A stretch of DNA of 64,000 nt. It comes from Streptomyces ferrugineus. GTDB taxonomy: Bacteria; Actinomycetota; Actinomycetes; Streptomycetales; Streptomycetaceae. Location: contig NZ_CP063373.1 in the NCBI RefSeq assembly GCF_015160855.1, forward strand, positions 372,001 through 436,000, written 5' to 3'. The notes under the pieces are model-generated. The model was given only the letters and a program-made list of their open reading frames with translations, was not told where the DNA came from and did not search any database. The translations under genes and the position numbers were made by a program. This document shows, piece by piece, positions 2,382-46,107 of the stretch (position 1 is its first letter; each line of letters starts with the position of its first letter).

Positions 2382-5300
2382 TCAGTTGGTGCCGATCCTC
2401 GACAGCAGGTCCACGATCCGGCTCTGCACCTCGGCGCTGGTCGACCGTTCCGCCAGGAACAGCACCGTCTCGCCGGAGGCCAGTCGCGGCAGGTCGGCCT
2501 GGTCGACGGCGGCCGTGTAGACGACGAGCGGGGTGCGGTTGAGCAGGCTGTTCGCACGCAGCCAGTCCACGATCCCGGCCTGCCGCCGGTGCACCTGCAT
2601 CAGGTCCATCACGACCAGGTTCGGCCGGAAGTCACCCGCCAGCAGCACCGCGTCGGAGTCACTCGCGGCCCGCGCCACCTGCATCCCACGCCGCTCCAAC
2701 GTCGCGGTCAGCGCCAGCGCGATCTCCGCGTGCTCCTCGATGAGCAGTACGCGCGGCGGGTGCTGCTCACTGTCCCGAGGGGCCAGCGCCTTCAGCAGTA
2801 CGGCGGGGTCGGCGCCGTACGCCGCCTCCCGCGAGGCCTGTCCGAGCCCCGCGGTCACCATCACCGGCACCTCGGCCGCGACGGCTGCCTGCCGCAGCGA
2901 CTGCAGCGCCGTCCGCGTGATCGGACCGGTCAGCGGGTCGACGAACAGCGCGGCCGGGAACGCCGCGATCTGCGCGTCCACCTCCTCGCGCGAGTGCACG
3001 ATCACCGGCCGGTAGCCGCGGTCGCTCAGCGCCTGCTGGGTCGTCACATCCGGCGCCGGCCACACCAACAGCCGCCGCGGGTTGTCGAGCGGCTCCGGCG
3101 GCAGTTCGTCGTCCATCGGCTGCGGACGCGGAGTGTCGGCGACCTCGATGGCCCCGCCCGGACCGTCGAGGGGCTCGGGACCCTCGGCGGCGTTCTCGTC
3201 CGGCGCGCCTATGGCGTACGACCGTCCGGCCGCCTCGGCCGTCGGCGCGAGCCGCGACTGACCGGTCGGCGACGGCTGGGCCTGGGGCTGCCCACCGAGC
3301 GACGGCTGCGGCGCCGGCGCGGCGGGCACCGGCTGTTCGGCCGGCGGATGCGGCCGCGCGGCCTGCTCCGTCGAGGCACCGGCCCGTGCGGCGGGATCGG
3401 GCGGCGTGCCCAGCTTGCGGCGCCGCCCGCCGTTGGTCTGATGCGGGGGCGGCGTGGCGGTCGACTGCGCGGGCGGCGCGGGCTGCTGCACCTGAGCCGC
3501 CTGCCGATTGAACGGCACGCCCTGCCCCAACGTCCGCACACTGATCGCCCGACCCTGCGTCGAGTTGGGGTCCACCGGAGCACCGGGCGCACCGGCACCG
3601 GCACCAGAACCGGCGGCAGCGGCGGCCTCGGCCGGAAGCGGCTGCGCCGCCCGCTGCTTCCCCGCCGCGGCCGCGGCGGCCTCCGGCGGCAGGGGAGTGC
3701 CCGGAGCCGGTGTGCCCTGGGCCGGCTGGGGCGCGGGCTGGGCGGCGTTCGGACTCGCCGGCACGGCGGCCCCGGCGCCGGAGGTGTCGTCGGCAGCGGG
3801 CCACTGCTGCGGGCCCGCAACGCCCTGCGCCGGCGTGCCCTGCGCGGGCGCCGCCTCGGCGGGGAGGGCCTGACCTGCGGCGACAGGGCTCGGAGCGGGC
3901 TGGGCGGCGGCCTGCCCCTGCGGCACGGGCACCGGTACGTCCTGGCCAGGCACACCTTGGCCGGCGGCGGCAGCGGCCGGCGCCGGAACCTCCTGCACAG
4001 GCGCCCCGGCCGCTGCCGCCGGCGGGGCCACGGCCCGGCGCCGACGCCCGGTCGGCGCGCTGGTCGGATGCGGCTGCGGCGGAGTGTGGTCCTCGGCCTG
4101 GTCGTGCGGCACGGCATCGTGCCGCCCCTCGTCACCGCGCACGCCCCCAGGAGCGGCCGGCCCCGGAACCGGCGCCACCGGGACCGGCGCCACCGGAGCA
4201 GCCGGAGTCATGGCGGCAGCGGCCGGCTCGGCCCCGCCGGGTGCCTGCGCCCCCTCGGCCGGCGCCCGGTCCGCCTCGGCGGGCGGCAGCGCGAACACCG
4301 TACGGGCACCCGCCTCTTGCGACTGAGCCTGTGCGGCACTGCGCTCGGCCGCCGCGGCCAGGGCACGCCGACGCCGCCCGGTCGGCTGAGGTGCGTCGCC
4401 CGACCCACCGGCCGCCTGCGCGGCGTCACCGGCCGGAGCGGGCAGAGCGGGCGGCAGCGCGTGCTGCTCCCCGCCGTCCCGCCGGGCACGTCGTCCGCCA
4501 CCGGGGGCGGGCACGCCCTGCGGCGGTACGGTCCCGCCCAGGCCGTTCCCGACGGCCGCGGCCCCCGCCGCATGCTCGGCGGCGGTGACGACGGCACCCT
4601 CGGCGACCCCGTCCCCACCGTCCTCGGCGGGCCGGCCACGGCGCCGTCCGGTGCCGCCGGAGACCTCGCCGCCACCGCCGCCCGCACCCTGGGGCAGCTC
4701 CGGCGCGGCCGCCGCACGCCTGCGCCGCCGCCCGGTCGGCGCGGCGGCCTCCGCATCGGCGGCCTCGGCCTCCGCACCCGGCGTATCGCTCTCCAGGAAG
4801 GCGTCGACGGACGACCGCCGGGCCCGCCGCCGCCCACTGCCGGCGCCCTCGGCCGCACCGCTCGCGCCGGCCCCGTCACCGACCTCGGCAACAGCGGTGT
4901 CGGAAGCGGTGTCGGGCGCGGCGGAAACCGCCCCGGCCCCACCCCCGATGGGCACCTCGAGGACGTACGCACTGCCGCTCATCCCGGGCACGTCGTGCGT
5001 CTGCAGCACCCCGCCGTGGGCCCGCACGATCCCGCGCACGATCGGCTCGTGCACCGGGTCTCCCCCGGCATACGGCCCGCGCACCTCGATCCGTACGACC
5101 TCACCGCGCTGCGCCGCCGCCACGACGACGGTGTTGTCCATGTAACCGCCCGCCGACACGGGCGAGTTGCCGGTCGCGTCGACCCCGGCGACATCCGCGA
5201 CCAGATGCGCGAGCGCGGTGGCCAGGCGCTGCGGGTCGACCTCGGCCTCGATGGGCGGCGCGTGCACGGCGAACTGCACCCGCCCCGGCCCGATGAGTTC

Positions 5301-7613: not shown

Positions 7614-7704
7614 GGAGGCGTCGCCTAGTCCGGTCTATGGCGCCGCACTGCTAATGCGGTTTGGGTCTTAAAGCCCATCGAGGGTTCAAATCCCTCCGCC
7701 TCCG
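7614..7704 (+). tRNA. tRNA-Ser(GCT)
   Basis: A 91-nt class II tRNA. The acceptor stem GGAGGCG (7614-7620) pairs with CGCCTCC (7697-7703), the anticodon loop CTGCTAA in a CCGCA/TGCGG stem gives anticodon GCT, there is a long variable arm, and the T-arm is GAGGG-TTCAAAT-CCCTC. The discriminator base is G at 7704. CCA is not encoded. Confidence 0.95.
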
Positions 7705-7895: not shown

Positions 7896-7968
7896 GCACT
7901 CGTAGCTTAACGGATAGAGCATCTGACTACGGATCAGAAGGTTGCAGGTTCGAATCCTGCCGAGTGCG
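7896..7968 (+). tRNA. tRNA-Arg(ACG)
   Basis: A 73-nt tRNA. The acceptor GCACTCG (7896-7902) pairs with CGAGTGC (7961-7967). The anticodon loop CTACGGA between TCTGA and TCAGA gives ACG, whose A34 is the substrate of TadA, encoded at 35142-35573. The T-arm is GCAGG-TTCGAAT-CCTGC and the discriminator is G. CCA is not encoded. Confidence 0.95.
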
Positions 7969-34995: not shown

Positions 34996-35080
34996 CGGTA
35001 GCGGAGGGATTTGAACCCTCGGTGACTTGCGCCACACTCGCTTTCGAGGCGAGCTCCTTCGGCCGCTCGGACACGCTACC
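34996..35080 (-). tRNA. tRNA-Ser(CGA)
   Basis: An 85-nt class II tRNA on the minus strand. The acceptor GGTAGCG pairs with CGCTACC, the anticodon loop CTCGAAA between CTCGC and GCGAG gives CGA, a long variable arm follows, and the T-arm is GAGGG-TTCAAAT-CCCTC. The discriminator is G. CCA is not encoded. Confidence 0.95.
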
Positions 35081-41876: not shown

Positions 41877-44066
41877 GTGACCGGCGAGATCTTCCGCGAT
41901 GCCTGGGGCATACCGCATCTCCGCGCGGACGGGGTACGAGAACTCGCCCGCGCACAGGGCCGTGTCACCGCCCTCGACCGGGCCTGGCAGCTGGAGGTGG
42001 AACGGCACCGGTCCCAGGGCACCTCCGCGTCCTTCCTCGGCGCCGACGCCCTGCCCTGGGACCGGTTCGTCAGACGGGCCCGCCTCGACGACACGGCCAG
42101 ACGCTGCTTCGCCGAGCTGGAGAGACGGGACCCGGAGACGGCCGGGTGGGTGCGGGCGTACGTCGACGGGGTCAACGAAGCGCTGGCCGAGGGGGCGGGC
42201 CGTACGCCGGAGTTCGCGCGGACCGGACTCGCGCCGGGCCGTTGGCGGCCCTGGACCCCGCTCGGCGTCTGGCTCGGCATCCACATCCTGTTCGCCGGCT
42301 TCCCGGCCAAGCTCTGGCGCGAGCAGGTCGTCCGGCATCTCGGCGCCGACGCGGTCGGGCTGTTCGCCACCGACGGGCCGGGCACCTCCGGAAGCAACGG
42401 CTGGCTGGTGAGCGGCGAGCGGACCGTCACCGGGCGGGCCGTGATCGCCGGCGACCCGCACCGCTTCATCGAAGAGCCCGGCGTCTACCAGCAGATCCAC
42501 CTCTCCTGCCCCGAGTTCGACGTCGTCGGCCTCGCCGTCCCGGGCATCCCCGGCATCGCCCACTTCGGCCACGCCGGCACGGTCGCCTGGGCCATCACCA
42601 ACGCCATGGCCGACTACCAGGACCTGTACCGGGAGCGGCTGCGGCGCACCGGGGCCGGTGTGGAGGCGCTGGACCCGGACGGGGTCTGGCGGCGGGCCGC
42701 ACGGCACACCGAGGTGGTGGAGATCGCGGGGGAGGAGCCGGTCGAGGTCGAGGTGATCGAGACGGAGCGGGGACCGGTGATCATCGGGGGCCCGGAGGGG
42801 CTGCCCGATGGCCTCGCCGATCCGCAGGACCCGCAGGACCTGCACGATCCGCAGGAAGGTTCCTTCGGGGAGCCCCCGCTCGCCGTAGCCCTCCGCTATC
42901 CACCCCGCGTCACCGCCGACCTCGGCTTCAGCGCCCTCCTCCCCCTCCTGCGCGCCCGCAGCGTGGCCGACGTCGACCGTGCCGTGGACGACTGGGCCGA
43001 GCCCGTCAACGTCGTCCAGGCCGCCGACACCGAGGGCGGCCTGCTGCACCGGGTGGCCGGAAAGGTGCCGGTGCGCTCCGCGGCCAACGGCATCCGGCTG
43101 GTGCCCGCGTGGGAGCCCGGCCACGACTGGCGCGGCTGGCACGAGACGCCCCGCGGCGGGCTCACCGACGGCGTCGCCGTCATGGCCAACCAGCGCGGTG
43201 TCGCCGCCCCGCTGGGCGTCGAGTTCGCCCCGCCGCATCGTGCCGACCGCATCACGGCCCTGCTCGGGGAGAAGGCCCACTGGTCGGCCGCCGACATGCC
43301 GGCGATCCACATGGACACCCACCTGGCCTCCGCGGCCCCCCTGCTGGACCTCCTGCGCTCCCTGGACACCCTCACCCCCGAGGCCGACCGCGTCCGCCGG
43401 ACGCTCCTGGACTGGGACCGCCGCATGGACGCGGACAGCGAGGCCGCCGCCGTGTACTCGGCGGTGCGCGGCGCGGTCGTACGCCGACTCGCCGCGCACC
43501 CCGCCTTCGCCGCGCTGTCCACGCCGCCCGCCTACCCCGAGGTCCTCCTCCCCTGGCTGGCCCTGCTCCCGCGCATCGGCTTCGCCCTGGAACACCTGCT
43601 GCGCGCCGAGGAGTTGTACGGCATCGACCGCGTCGAGGCCGTGCGCGCGGCGGTCGAGGAGGTGGCCGCCGCACAGTCCGCCGAGCATTCCGCCGGAGCA
43701 GGACACGGCACCCGGGGTGAGACCTGGGGCGACACCCACCGGCTCGCCCCTTGGCGGGCCCTCACCGACACGGCGTACGACGGACCCGGCCTCTCCGGCG
43801 ACCACGACTGCGTGCTGTCCACCTCGGCCGTGCCTGGCCTGACCGACCTGAGCGCGCGCGGCCCCTCCGCCCGCTACGTCTGGGACCTGGCCGACCGCGA
43901 GGCCAGCCTCTGGGTGGTCCCGCTGGGCGCCTCGGGCATCCCCGGCTCACCCCATCACCGCGACCAACTCCCCCTGTGGCTCAAGGGAGACCTGGCCCCG
44001 GTCGTCACCGATTTCACCGAGTTCGAGAAGGAACTTCCCAATCGTGATGTCAAGCCGCGAGTGTGA
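41877..44066 (+). CDS. Penicillin-acylase-family Ntn-hydrolase, C-terminus altered by IS110 element
   Basis: A 729-aa Ntn-hydrolase precursor that should self-cleave at Ser173 (GTSG/SNGWLVSG), giving alpha and beta chains. No signal peptide is visible (MTGEIFRDAWGIPHLRADG), so it is probably cytoplasmic. Acylases of this family hydrolyse amide-linked acyl chains, and PvdQ in Pseudomonas trims a siderophore precursor. The iron box upstream and a hydroxamate-type acetyltransferase gene downstream point to siderophore metabolism. An IS110 element begins at 44044: the last residues RDVKPRV are element-derived. Joining 44043 to 45430 restores LTNDQF and a stop at 45447-45449. GTG 41877 follows AAAGGAGGGG. 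Activity is probably retained. Confidence 0.85.
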   Translation: MTGEIFRDAWGIPHLRADGVRELARAQGRVTALDRAWQLEVERHRSQGTSASFLGADALPWDRFVRRARLDDTARRCFAELERRDPETAGWVRAYVDGVNEALAEGAGRTPEFARTGLAPGRWRPWTPLGVWLGIHILFAGFPAKLWREQVVRHLGADAVGLFATDGPGTSGSNGWLVSGERTVTGRAVIAGDPHRFIEEPGVYQQIHLSCPEFDVVGLAVPGIPGIAHFGHAGTVAWAITNAMADYQDLYRERLRRTGAGVEALDPDGVWRRAARHTEVVEIAGEEPVEVEVIETERGPVIIGGPEGLPDGLADPQDPQDLHDPQEGSFGEPPLAVALRYPPRVTADLGFSALLPLLRARSVADVDRAVDDWAEPVNVVQAADTEGGLLHRVAGKVPVRSAANGIRLVPAWEPGHDWRGWHETPRGGLTDGVAVMANQRGVAAPLGVEFAPPHRADRITALLGEKAHWSAADMPAIHMDTHLASAAPLLDLLRSLDTLTPEADRVRRTLLDWDRRMDADSEAAAVYSAVRGAVVRRLAAHPAFAALSTPPAYPEVLLPWLALLPRIGFALEHLLRAEELYGIDRVEAVRAAVEEVAAAQSAEHSAGAGHGTRGETWGDTHRLAPWRALTDTAYDGPGLSGDHDCVLSTSAVPGLTDLSARGPSARYVWDLADREASLWVVPLGASGIPGSPHHRDQLPLWLKGDLAPVVTDFTEFEKELPNRDVKPRV

Positions 44067-45240
44067 CGGGAGGTGTCTCGTGGTAGCACTCTCCGTCACG
44101 GATCATCGCCCACAGCACGTTGACCCGGCGGCGAGCGAGAGCCAGCAGTGCTTGCTTGTGTCCCTTGCCCTCCCGCCGCTTCCGGTCGTAGTAGGCCTTC
44201 GAGGCCGGACAGCACTGCAGGCTGACCATCGCCGACAAATACAGCGTCCGCAGCAGTCCACGGTGATATCGCTTAGGCCGGCGCAGGTTTCCACTGACCC
44301 GACCGGAATCGCGTGGCTGTGGAGCCAGTCCGGCGAATCCGGCCAGGCGGTCGGAGCTGCCGAAGACACCCAAGTCGCCGCCGGTAGCGGCGATGAACTC
44401 CGCTCCGAGCCTGGGACCCATGCCAGGCAGACTGCGGATCACCTCAGCGTGCGGGTGCTGACGAAATGTCGCCTCGATGAGAGTCTCCAGCTCCGCGATC
44501 TCTGCATCGAGGTCCATGACCGCCTTCGCGAGGCGGGCCACCATGGCGGCAGCCAGCTTCTCCCCGGGCAACGCGGTCAGTTGCCCCTGGGCGGTCTCCA
44601 CGGCCGTGCGGGCGAGCGTTGCGGCGCCGCGGACCTTACGGTTCTTCAGCCAGGTCTCGATGCGCCGAACACCCGCGCGACGGATGGCGGCCGGGCTCTG
44701 GTAGCCGGTCAGCAGCATGACTGGCCCCTTGAGGGTCAGGTCCAGCGCCCGCTCCAGGCCGGGAAAGATTTCCAGGAGCTGGGCTCGCAGCCGGTTGATC
44801 TGCCGGGTTCGGTCGAAGACCACATCCAGGCGACGGGCGGTCAGGGTGCGCAGGTCGACGGCGATGTCGTCGCCCGGCCGAAGCAGGCCGAGGTCACGCC
44901 GGACGCGTGCCTGGTCGGCGATGACGAAGGCGTCTTTGGCGTCCGTCTTCCCCTCGCCCCGGTAGGTGCCCGACGCGCGATGAACCGCGAAGCCGGTCAG
45001 ATAGGCCACCGGCTGGCCGTGGTTGACCAGCAAGCCGAGCAGCAGCGCGGCCCCGCCGTGGTTGAGGTCGACGGCCCACAGCGCGTCCGGGGATATCGCC
45101 AGCACGTCGCCGATCAGCTGAAACAGGTCGGACTCGTCGTTCTGGACGCGGCGGGACAACAGCCGTTCACCATTCGTGTTGATCACCACGCAGTGGTGAT
45201 GCGTCTTGCCGATGTCCACTCCGGCCCAGATCTGGGGCAC
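44050..45240 (-). CDS. IS110-family transposase (DEDD/serine recombinase)
   Basis: A 396-aa recombinase. The N-terminal RuvC-like DEDD domain shows Asp9 (AGVDIGKTHHH), Asp58 (AVDLNHGG), and Asp100/Asp103 in GKTDAKDAF. The C-terminal Tnp20 domain has VIRSLPGMGPRLGAEFIAAT and the region LRTLYLSAMVSLQ with the conserved serine. Length is normal, so the enzyme looks intact. GTG 45240 follows GGAGG at five bases. These recombinases use an element-encoded guide (bridge/seek) RNA for target choice. Confidence 0.9.
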   Translation of the reverse strand: MPQIWAGVDIGKTHHHCVVINTNGERLLSRRVQNDESDLFQLIGDVLAISPDALWAVDLNHGGAALLLGLLVNHGQPVAYLTGFAVHRASGTYRGEGKTDAKDAFVIADQARVRRDLGLLRPGDDIAVDLRTLTARRLDVVFDRTRQINRLRAQLLEIFPGLERALDLTLKGPVMLLTGYQSPAAIRRAGVRRIETWLKNRKVRGAATLARTAVETAQGQLTALPGEKLAAAMVARLAKAVMDLDAEIAELETLIEATFRQHPHAEVIRSLPGMGPRLGAEFIAATGGDLGVFGSSDRLAGFAGLAPQPRDSGRVSGNLRRPKRYHRGLLRTLYLSAMVSLQCCPASKAYYDRKRREGKGHKQALLALARRRVNVLWAMIRDGECYHETPPVTLAA

Positions 45241-45426
45241 GGTCACCTCCGCCAGCTCGTCGTCGATCAATCCCGCAGACGACCTCGCCGGCGTGGTCCT
45301 ACACAGCGATCGAGTCGCATCTCCCAATTGGCGGTCGAGTCGTCGCGGAGCTCCGGGCGGCCAAGTTCCTTGAGCCATCCAACGGCTCTCCGATGACAGC
45401 CATACCCGCAGCCCCTGGGCCCACCG
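45241..45426 (-). ncRNA. Putative bridge RNA region of the IS110 element
   Basis: This 186-bp noncoding stretch lies between the transposase start and the element end, where IS110-subgroup elements encode their guide RNA. It contains TCCCAAT (45322-45328), identical to seven bases at the left junction in the target (44036-44042). The match is suggestive only, and RNA boundaries and loops were not modelled. Confidence 0.35.
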
Positions 45427-45471
45427 ATCTTACGAATGACCAGTTCTGACCCCCTTGAAAGGTAGGACCCG

Positions 45472-46107
45472 ATGTCTGATCAGCCCGCCGCGGCCCCGGC
45501 CACCACCGTCCGCGAACCCGTCCACGAGCCCGTCCGCGAACCCGTCCACGAGGAGGCCGTCGACGGTTTCGGCACGGTCCGGATCCGCGCCCTGGACCCG
45601 CGGGCCGACGCCGGGGTCGTGCACGGCTGGGCCAGCCAGGAACGCGCCTCCTTCTGGGGCATGAACGGCCTGACCCGGGACCAGGTGTCCGAGATCTACG
45701 CCCACATGACCACCCTCGACACCCACCACGCCTTCCTGGTCCTGCGGGACACCGACCCGGTCGCGCTCCTCCAGACCTACGAGCCGGAGGCGGACCGCGT
45801 CAGCGAGGTCTACGACGTCCTCCCCGGGGACATCGGCGTCCACCTGCTGCTGGCCCCCGCCGGCCCCGAGGGCGCGCGACCCGGCTGGACCTCGGCGCTG
45901 CTGACCGTCGTCGCGTCGTACGTCTTCCGGACCCTGGACCGCCGACGGGTGATCGTCGACCCGGACGTGCGCAACGAGAAGGCCGTAGCCCGCTTCCTCA
46001 AGCAGGGTTTCAGGGCCGGGCCGGTGGTCGTACTGCCGGAGGTCGATCTGCCGGACGTGCACATCCCGGAGAAGAAGGCCCAACTCGCGTTCCTCGACCG
46101 GGAGTAG
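45472..46107 (+). CDS. Siderophore-type GNAT acetyltransferase (IucB/AlcB/MbtK-like)
   Basis: A 211-aa GNAT enzyme. The core from about residue 33 (GTVRIRALDPRADAGVVHGW, ASQERASFWGMNGLTRDQV, VYDVLPGDIGVHLLLAP, VDPDVRNEKAVARFLKQGF) matches the acyltransferases that acylate N-hydroxylysine or similar hydroxylamines in siderophore synthesis. The N-terminus has a duplicated octapeptide (VREPVHEP, VREPVHEE). Before the IS110 insertion it lay 22 bp behind the acylase stop and would have shared the iron-regulated transcript; it is now 1.4 kb away. ATG 45472 follows AAAGGTAGG. Confidence 0.85.
   Translation: MSDQPAAAPATTVREPVHEPVREPVHEEAVDGFGTVRIRALDPRADAGVVHGWASQERASFWGMNGLTRDQVSEIYAHMTTLDTHHAFLVLRDTDPVALLQTYEPEADRVSEVYDVLPGDIGVHLLLAPAGPEGARPGWTSALLTVVASYVFRTLDRRRVIVDPDVRNEKAVARFLKQGFRAGPVVVLPEVDLPDVHIPEKKAQLAFLDRE

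Follow-up and report, generated by a model that had tools for sequence, protein, structure and literature searches.

The question raised by this window (the whole stretch of 64,000 nucleotides of Streptomyces ferrugineus that was analysed, 372001-436000 on a contig of 9.96 Mb) is why the same seven-base word, TCCCAAT, is present both at 45322-45328, in the noncoding end before the recombinase gene of an insertion sequence, and at 44036-44042. A first-pass annotation had taken the noncoding end as a candidate bridge RNA, i.e., the guide RNA of IS110 elements, and the heptamer as its target-binding guide, preserved next to the site that it had chosen. The first half of this reading holds: by every sequence test that we made, the region has the properties of an IS110 bridge RNA. 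The second half does not: judged from the comparisons below, the heptamer is the left donor guide, which would pair with the element's own end and not with the landing site.

The recombinase combines a DEDD domain (DEDD_Tnp_IS110, 160 bits) with a C-terminal Transposase_20 domain (65 bits) in Pfam, the combination found in the IS110 group, and matches the NCBIfam profile NF033542 (IS110 family RNA-guided transposase) with 232.5 bits against a cut-off of 140. Its start is probably the GTG at 45238-45240, a choice based on the GGAGG five bases before it and on annotated starts in relatives, and 45241-45426 is the noncoding 5' end of this gene. We found four full copies of the element in the genome (~100% identity), at four unrelated sites and with common ends. 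Read in the recombinase sense, all four start with TCCTACCTTTCAAGG and end with GATTGGGAAG (with ATTGGGAAG at the right end of every one), and the sequences outside them differ except for the target motif. The right end was absent from all 30 related loci that hold the flanking genes (best matches, from 21 other genomes). At the element-free locus L126 the sequence is GAGAAGGAATCCGATGTCTGA; in the window the element stands between GAGAAGGAA and CCCGATGTCTGA. The junction lies at 44033/44034, and the heptamer is therefore within the element. Because related loci are free of the element and its copies share their ends, the TCCCAAT found at 44036-44042 belongs to the right end of the element itself, and is not the target bases left of the junction for which it had been taken before.

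These comparisons establish the boundaries (Table 1). With the cut at 44033/44034, the flanks GAGAAGGAA and CCCGATGTCTGA differ from L126 by one substitution, with no change in length, and the acylase stop is in frame; the idea that the window copy is short of one base at the junction was dropped after the cut had been placed there. The core dinucleotide GT (AC on the + strand) is found at both junctions, 44033-44034 and 45467-45468, and comparison with element-free sites indicates that it is all the sequence that the junctions share, with no longer target duplication. The acylase gene (41877-44066) now reads into the element and has a new C-terminal tail (..ELPNRDVKPRV) that ends at 44066. 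In several relatives the acylase stop falls inside the start of the next gene (ATGTCTGA).

Table 1. Features of the element and of its insertion site, in window coordinates.
Feature	Position	Strand	Basis or remark
Whole IS110-group element, 1434 bp	44034..45467	-	Left end 45467, right end 44034
IS110 recombinase gene	44050..45240	-	Pfam and NCBIfam profiles, sequence, annotated relatives
Predicted bridge RNA: 5' stem-loop, target-binding loop, donor-binding loop; ends approximate	45278..45450	-	Consensus fold, 50 elements
Left target guide (LTG) GTCATCGGAG, complement of start codon and spacer	45388..45397	-	Covaries with left flank, 0/5000 shuffles as high
Right target guide (RTG) CAAGGAAC, Shine-Dalgarno-like AAGGA and core	45365..45372	-	Covaries with right flank, 0/5000 shuffles as high
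Left donor guide (LDG) CAATTGGGAG, includes the heptamer	45321..45330	-	Covaries with right end, 1/5000 and 0/2000 shuffles as high
Right donor guide (RDG) GTAGGAC, complementary to left-end GTCCTAC	45296..45302	-	Covaries with left end, 0/5000, 17 pairs
Left donor, ATTGGGA on the - strand: right terminus, partner of the heptamer	44036..44042	-	In all four copies; absent from 30/30 related loci
Left end TCCTACCTT (-), with -10-like box of predicted circle-junction promoter	45459..45467		+ strand AAGGTAGGA replaces native Shine-Dalgarno
Target half with native Shine-Dalgarno (..GAGAAGGAA), end of penicillin acylase gene	44020..44033	+	
Second half of the target: CCCG spacer, then ATG start codon (45472) of GNAT acetyltransferase gene	45468..45474	+	

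The left ends of 50 elements fold into a consensus made of a 5' stem-loop, a long stem with an internal target loop and a second stem with a donor loop. Compensatory change demonstrates the fold: 98.1% of 1997 cells are paired and 17 of the 40 pairs have changed on both sides, which none of 500 shuffles reached, and sliding the partner strand cuts pairing in the alignment to 28-51%. This predicted, covarying RNA precedes the recombinase gene at the left end, as in the IS110 group, and does not follow it in the right end, as in the IS1111 group. Its 5' stem-loop would begin near 45443 and its donor stem end near 45278, and the extent of 45241-45426 proposed in the first-pass annotation was thus right in placing a bridge RNA there and slightly short on the 5' side. 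The annotation had also asked whether the heptamer falls in a loop when the RNA is folded; it does, in the unpaired 5' strand of the predicted donor loop. Rfam, at gathering thresholds over the window, gave only three tRNA genes (7614-7704, 7896-7968 and 34996-35080) and no bridge RNA family. The fold alignment holds 50 of 51 non-redundant rows, the one excluded being L057, which was kept in the guide comparisons. Its bridge RNA (L057:2877-3081) has lost part of the donor loop and with it the left donor guide, and its right end keeps ATTGGGA; the element is possibly dead, or served by the RNA of another copy.

For the guides we compared relatives taken as the best 80 of 188 matches in one search and as 30 loci from 295 genomes in another, mostly from Streptomyces (131 of 186 plasmid records). 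A 5' end was present in 104 elements, a 3' end in 95 and both in 86, of which 80 were distinct. After dropping five with ends lost or unrecognisable (L025, L034, L049, L091 and L118), 75 were kept; the four copies of the window's own genome are among them, and some genomes contribute more than one copy. In L049 the left and right ends are repeated around an N (L049:2818-3148 and about 4300-4440), which suggests a tandem or misassembled copy.

The guides are named as in the main text of the IS621 paper (PMC11208160), where left guides are in the top-strand sense and right guides its complement. Over the 75 elements, cognate guide-DNA pairs were set against shuffled ones, with one row per distinct pair. 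The LTG matched its target in 6.25 of 8 positions versus 4.18 when shuffled (73 pairs) and the RTG in 5.87 of 7 versus 3.02 (69 pairs), with no shuffle in 5000 as high for either, although related sequences inflate such tests. The LDG matched the right end in 6.83 of 8 positions versus 6.47 (36 pairs; 1 of 5000 shuffles as high) and the RDG the left end in 5.59 of 6 versus 4.81 (17 pairs; 0 of 5000), and this donor covariation rests on few independent changes because the element ends are conserved. Both loops thus covary with their DNA partners at the level of sequence, as in the IS110 group. Single cases can be complete: the LTG of copy L011 matches its site in 10 of 10 positions, and the RTG of L045, TTACGGGAC, fully matches GTCCCGTAA. 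The core is also shared, the dinucleotide being equal at both junctions in 72 of the 75 elements (GT 52, TC 14, GC 6; exceptions L089, L092 and L121), a number that shuffles never raised above 55. When the right and left ends are joined, as in a circle, 74 of the 75 show a TTGACA-like box and a TAccTT-like box separated by 17 (69 elements) or 18 (5) bases, under patterns that allowed box variants and were run without a shuffled control. This is the sequence pattern expected of the promoter that IS110-group elements build from their joined ends.

That the heptamer is instead a target guide, preserved beside the site it chose, is scarcely credible. The seven-base identity is real, but the matching bases are inside the element, and when the heptamer region was compared with the target flanks of the further copies, the check proposed at the outset, the match was 4.10 of 7 against 4.17 in shuffled pairs (73 distinct pairs; 1868 of 2000 shuffles as high). 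The same region matched the element's own right end in 6.69 positions versus 6.39 (36 pairs; 0 of 2000), and a different segment, the LTG, matched the target flank (6.34 versus 4.77; 73 pairs; 0 of 2000). Element-free sites and guide swaps together already refute this reading. Insertion sites without TCCCAAT, which the annotation had named as a possible refutation, cannot serve as one, because the four copies carry the word as their own end. The annotation had also allowed for chance, and a lone 7-mer is indeed weak evidence, with ~0.01 matches expected by arithmetic per strand in 186 bp. Yet guide and right end hold an identical heptamer in 68 of the 75 elements (59 ATTGGGA and, as a variant common to guide and end in nine elements, 6 ATTAGGA and 3 ATGGGGA) and differ in only 7, and a Rhodococcus plasmid copy has ATTGAGA in both. 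With four covarying guides, a covarying fold and a shared core, a chance match in an ordinary leader that encodes no guide RNA is already refuted, and its probability is practically nil.

If the heptamer serves the donor side, what do the target guides read? They spell the complement of ATG and the Shine-Dalgarno AAGGA. The sites of the four copies (the slash marks the junction) are GACATCGGG/TTCCTTCTC, GTCATCGGGG/TTCCCTCTC, GTCATGAGAG/TTCCTTCTG and GTCATCGGAG/TTCCTTTCC, to be compared with the LTG GTCATCGGAG and the RTG read as TTCCTTG. On the other strand all four are a Shine-Dalgarno, a short spacer and ATG, and all four copies sit between Shine-Dalgarno and start codon, in front of genes for a GNAT acetyltransferase, a pyruvate formate lyase-like protein, a 139-aa protein without a Pfam match and a short-chain dehydrogenase. 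A simple rule classed the right target guides of 44 of the 75 elements as Shine-Dalgarno-like, those of the four own copies among them. A gene start was defined as an ATG or GTG that lies 3-9 bases from the junction and opens a frame of 100 codons or more. By this measure 34 of the 44 elements (again with the own four) are inserted at a gene start, versus 4 of the 31 whose guides are of another kind and 1024 of 14800 random positions (7%). On the other side of the element a gene start was found in only 2 of the 44. Position and orientation are thus established from the sequences as in IS900-like elements, i.e., insertion in one orientation between Shine-Dalgarno and start codon. The ten misses are six TACGGGAC elements that are not at gene starts, plus L028, L073, L084 and L087.

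Of 20 target proteins scanned among the 34, 19 match a Pfam family at 1e-5, and in the two annotated start-site insertions among five plasmid copies the annotated gene start is exactly the predicted codon (two of the others have a fixed-site guide and one is in a record without annotation in that stretch). Within the 34 start-site elements CAT is present in 33 LTGs, and the LTG still follows its own target (5.62 of 8 versus 4.49; 0 of 5000 shuffles). The four LTG bases beside CAT match in 2.75 of 4 positions versus 1.76 (32 pairs; 0 of 5000), and in 35 elements of any class chosen by CAT alone these bases match in 2.85 of 4 versus 1.75 (27 pairs). Where the start codon is 7 bases away (6 elements) the LTG mean is 4.0 of 8, no better than chance, and there selection may rest on the RTG. 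Overall, the target guide is loose. Against the 17-base word made of both target guides the own sites have 9 (window), 3, 3 and 1 mismatches, and at the window site the LTG has to be shifted by one base to fit (7 of 9, counted by hand). The genome has 16 unoccupied places with at most 3 mismatches, versus 2 for a control; since the best of them has 2, only the L011 site beats all unoccupied places.

We hold it as very probable, on this comparative evidence, that the element belongs to the IS110 group of insertion sequences and encodes a bridge RNA in its 5' noncoding end, with a donor loop (containing the heptamer) for the joined ends and a target loop for the translation-initiation region, and that it inserts at a GT core between Shine-Dalgarno and start codon. 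In the mechanism that we propose, the 5' noncoding end would be transcribed into the bridge RNA, and the LDG (with the heptamer) and RDG would pair with the junction at which the right and left ends meet in the excised circle. In the target, the LTG would bind the complement of the start codon together with its 5' side, and the RTG the Shine-Dalgarno AAGGA. The recombinase would then exchange strands at the shared GT core, and the element would enter in one orientation between Shine-Dalgarno and start codon of a gene. Transcription of the RNA, circle formation and base pairing during recombination we infer from homology to IS621.

Start-site guides are not the only ones carried by this group. 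On a recombinase tree of the 75 rows, built by a quick method, separating start-site elements from the rest needs 10 changes, 6 of them forced by well-supported branches, against 25 in shuffles; 37 rows were labelled start-site, i.e., the 34 plus L028, L073 and L084, added by guide similarity. Further target classes are TAAGGGCTG/TCCCGTA, CAAGCT/CAGTAG, CATGGAG/TTCTCT and GAGCTTG/TTCTTT. Six elements (L023, L026, L045, L050, L082 and L104) have a common target of about (T)AAGGGCTG/TCCCGTA, possibly, as a guess, the end of another mobile element. Seven (L074, L076, L077, L079, L080, L081 and L093), four of them from one S. canus genome, have CATGGAG/TTCTCT or nearly so, with a reading frame of at least 100 codons behind in 2 of the 7. 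The pattern suggests that within one IS110 recombinase clade the address has switched several times between gene starts and other sites, which would be a natural record of guide reprogramming. The comparison also yields predicted bridge RNAs from actinobacteria, with GT, TC and GC as core dinucleotides.

We take IS900 to be a member of the IS110 family and ISEc11 to belong to the IS1111 group. A study by Doran in 1997 reportedly, to go by its title, tied the IS900 target to expression of the opposite-strand gene hed, and not to a guide RNA. According to PMC8141618, IS900 of Mycobacterium avium subsp. paratuberculosis carries the hed frame and has the target CATGNNNNNNTCTCCTT, which is the complement of a start codon and Shine-Dalgarno, like the targets here. 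Insertion of IS900 at such sites was already known; a guide as its explanation comes from the elements studied here and would be a concrete, testable cause for the preference reported in 1997, i.e., a guide RNA that spells the start signal. IS621, as described in the main text of PMC11208160, is alike in that its RNA comes from the left end, ahead of the recombinase gene, and has a 5' stem-loop, a target loop and a donor loop, and in the logic of LTG, RTG, LDG and RDG, the core dinucleotide and the promoter rebuilt at the right-left junction. It differs in the core, which is CT in IS621 and GT here (GC or TC in some relatives), and in that a translation start is targeted by 34 of the 75 elements here and other sites by the rest. 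The seekRNA of ISEc11 and ISEc21, described in PMC11187229, is likewise an RNA from a noncoding region that guides target choice and can be reprogrammed, but its size and targets are different. The main text of PMC11208160 carries no mention of IS900, start codons or Streptomyces, and PMC11187229 none of IS900, with 'start codon' once. In the literature searched, with subscription papers and preprints largely outside it, we found no publication joining IS900 with bridge RNA and no title on guides for start signals; papers mentioning both bridge RNA and Shine-Dalgarno concern, to judge by their titles, transcription factors. The link between IS900 and a guide may have been stated before.

The insertion also changes what precedes the start codon. 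The element end (AAGGTAGGA in the window) pairs with what we assumed as the anti-Shine-Dalgarno word more strongly than the native site in 26 of the 34 and more weakly in 3, counting differences of over 1 kcal/mol; the mean is -8.4 for native sites, insertion takes it to -11.1, and random 20-mers give -3.7. Many elements without start-site targeting have this left end too. The replacement Shine-Dalgarno may therefore be an incidental effect of the promoter box on the opposite strand, and it is not retained as an established adaptation. On balance we lean slightly towards a bridge-RNA class that evolved to read the translation-initiation signal (anti-start codon and Shine-Dalgarno) as a generic landing pad, that switches repeatedly with fixed-site addresses on nearly the same recombinase, and whose left end resupplies a Shine-Dalgarno at the same spacing, so that the gene behind stays translatable. 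If true, this would give an RNA-guided explanation of IS900-type targeting.

The position at start signals could also be partly a by-product of a real bridge RNA, with a guide that names an AAGGA-like word, and start sites being just the places where this word is frequent and an insertion does little harm. The RTG keeps one register relative to the Shine-Dalgarno, whereas the distance to the start codon varies from 4 to 9, the LTG fits worst at spacing 7, and insertions inside genes are expected to be purged. The left ends shared with elements of other targets point the same way, as does the count of unoccupied CAT-N5-TTCCTT sites in the own genome, 5 versus 4 for the reversed pattern. We nevertheless regard this as rather unlikely, if worth serious attention, given CAT in nearly all LTGs of the start-site class and the match of the bases beside it to the individual site. 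Very improbable is the idea proposed for IS900, that start signals are chosen so that the Shine-Dalgarno of the target drives a gene on the opposite strand of the element. Such a frame, of 450 codons, is indeed open here (44044-45396), but it is codon-aligned with the recombinase and stop-free in only 25 of 71 readable elements, and stops are about as frequent in it (70 in 30078 codons) as in 26 target genes (26 in 8968). A hed-like gene, with IS900 compared by its published description, is thus not conserved in these elements, and the non-conserved frame and ordinary stop rate led us to reject it as an explanation. As a last observation, one copy (L010:2679-5031), where the one neighbour scanned had no Pfam match, lies between what appear by eye to be two tandem paralogues of a secreted protein of 139-157 aa.
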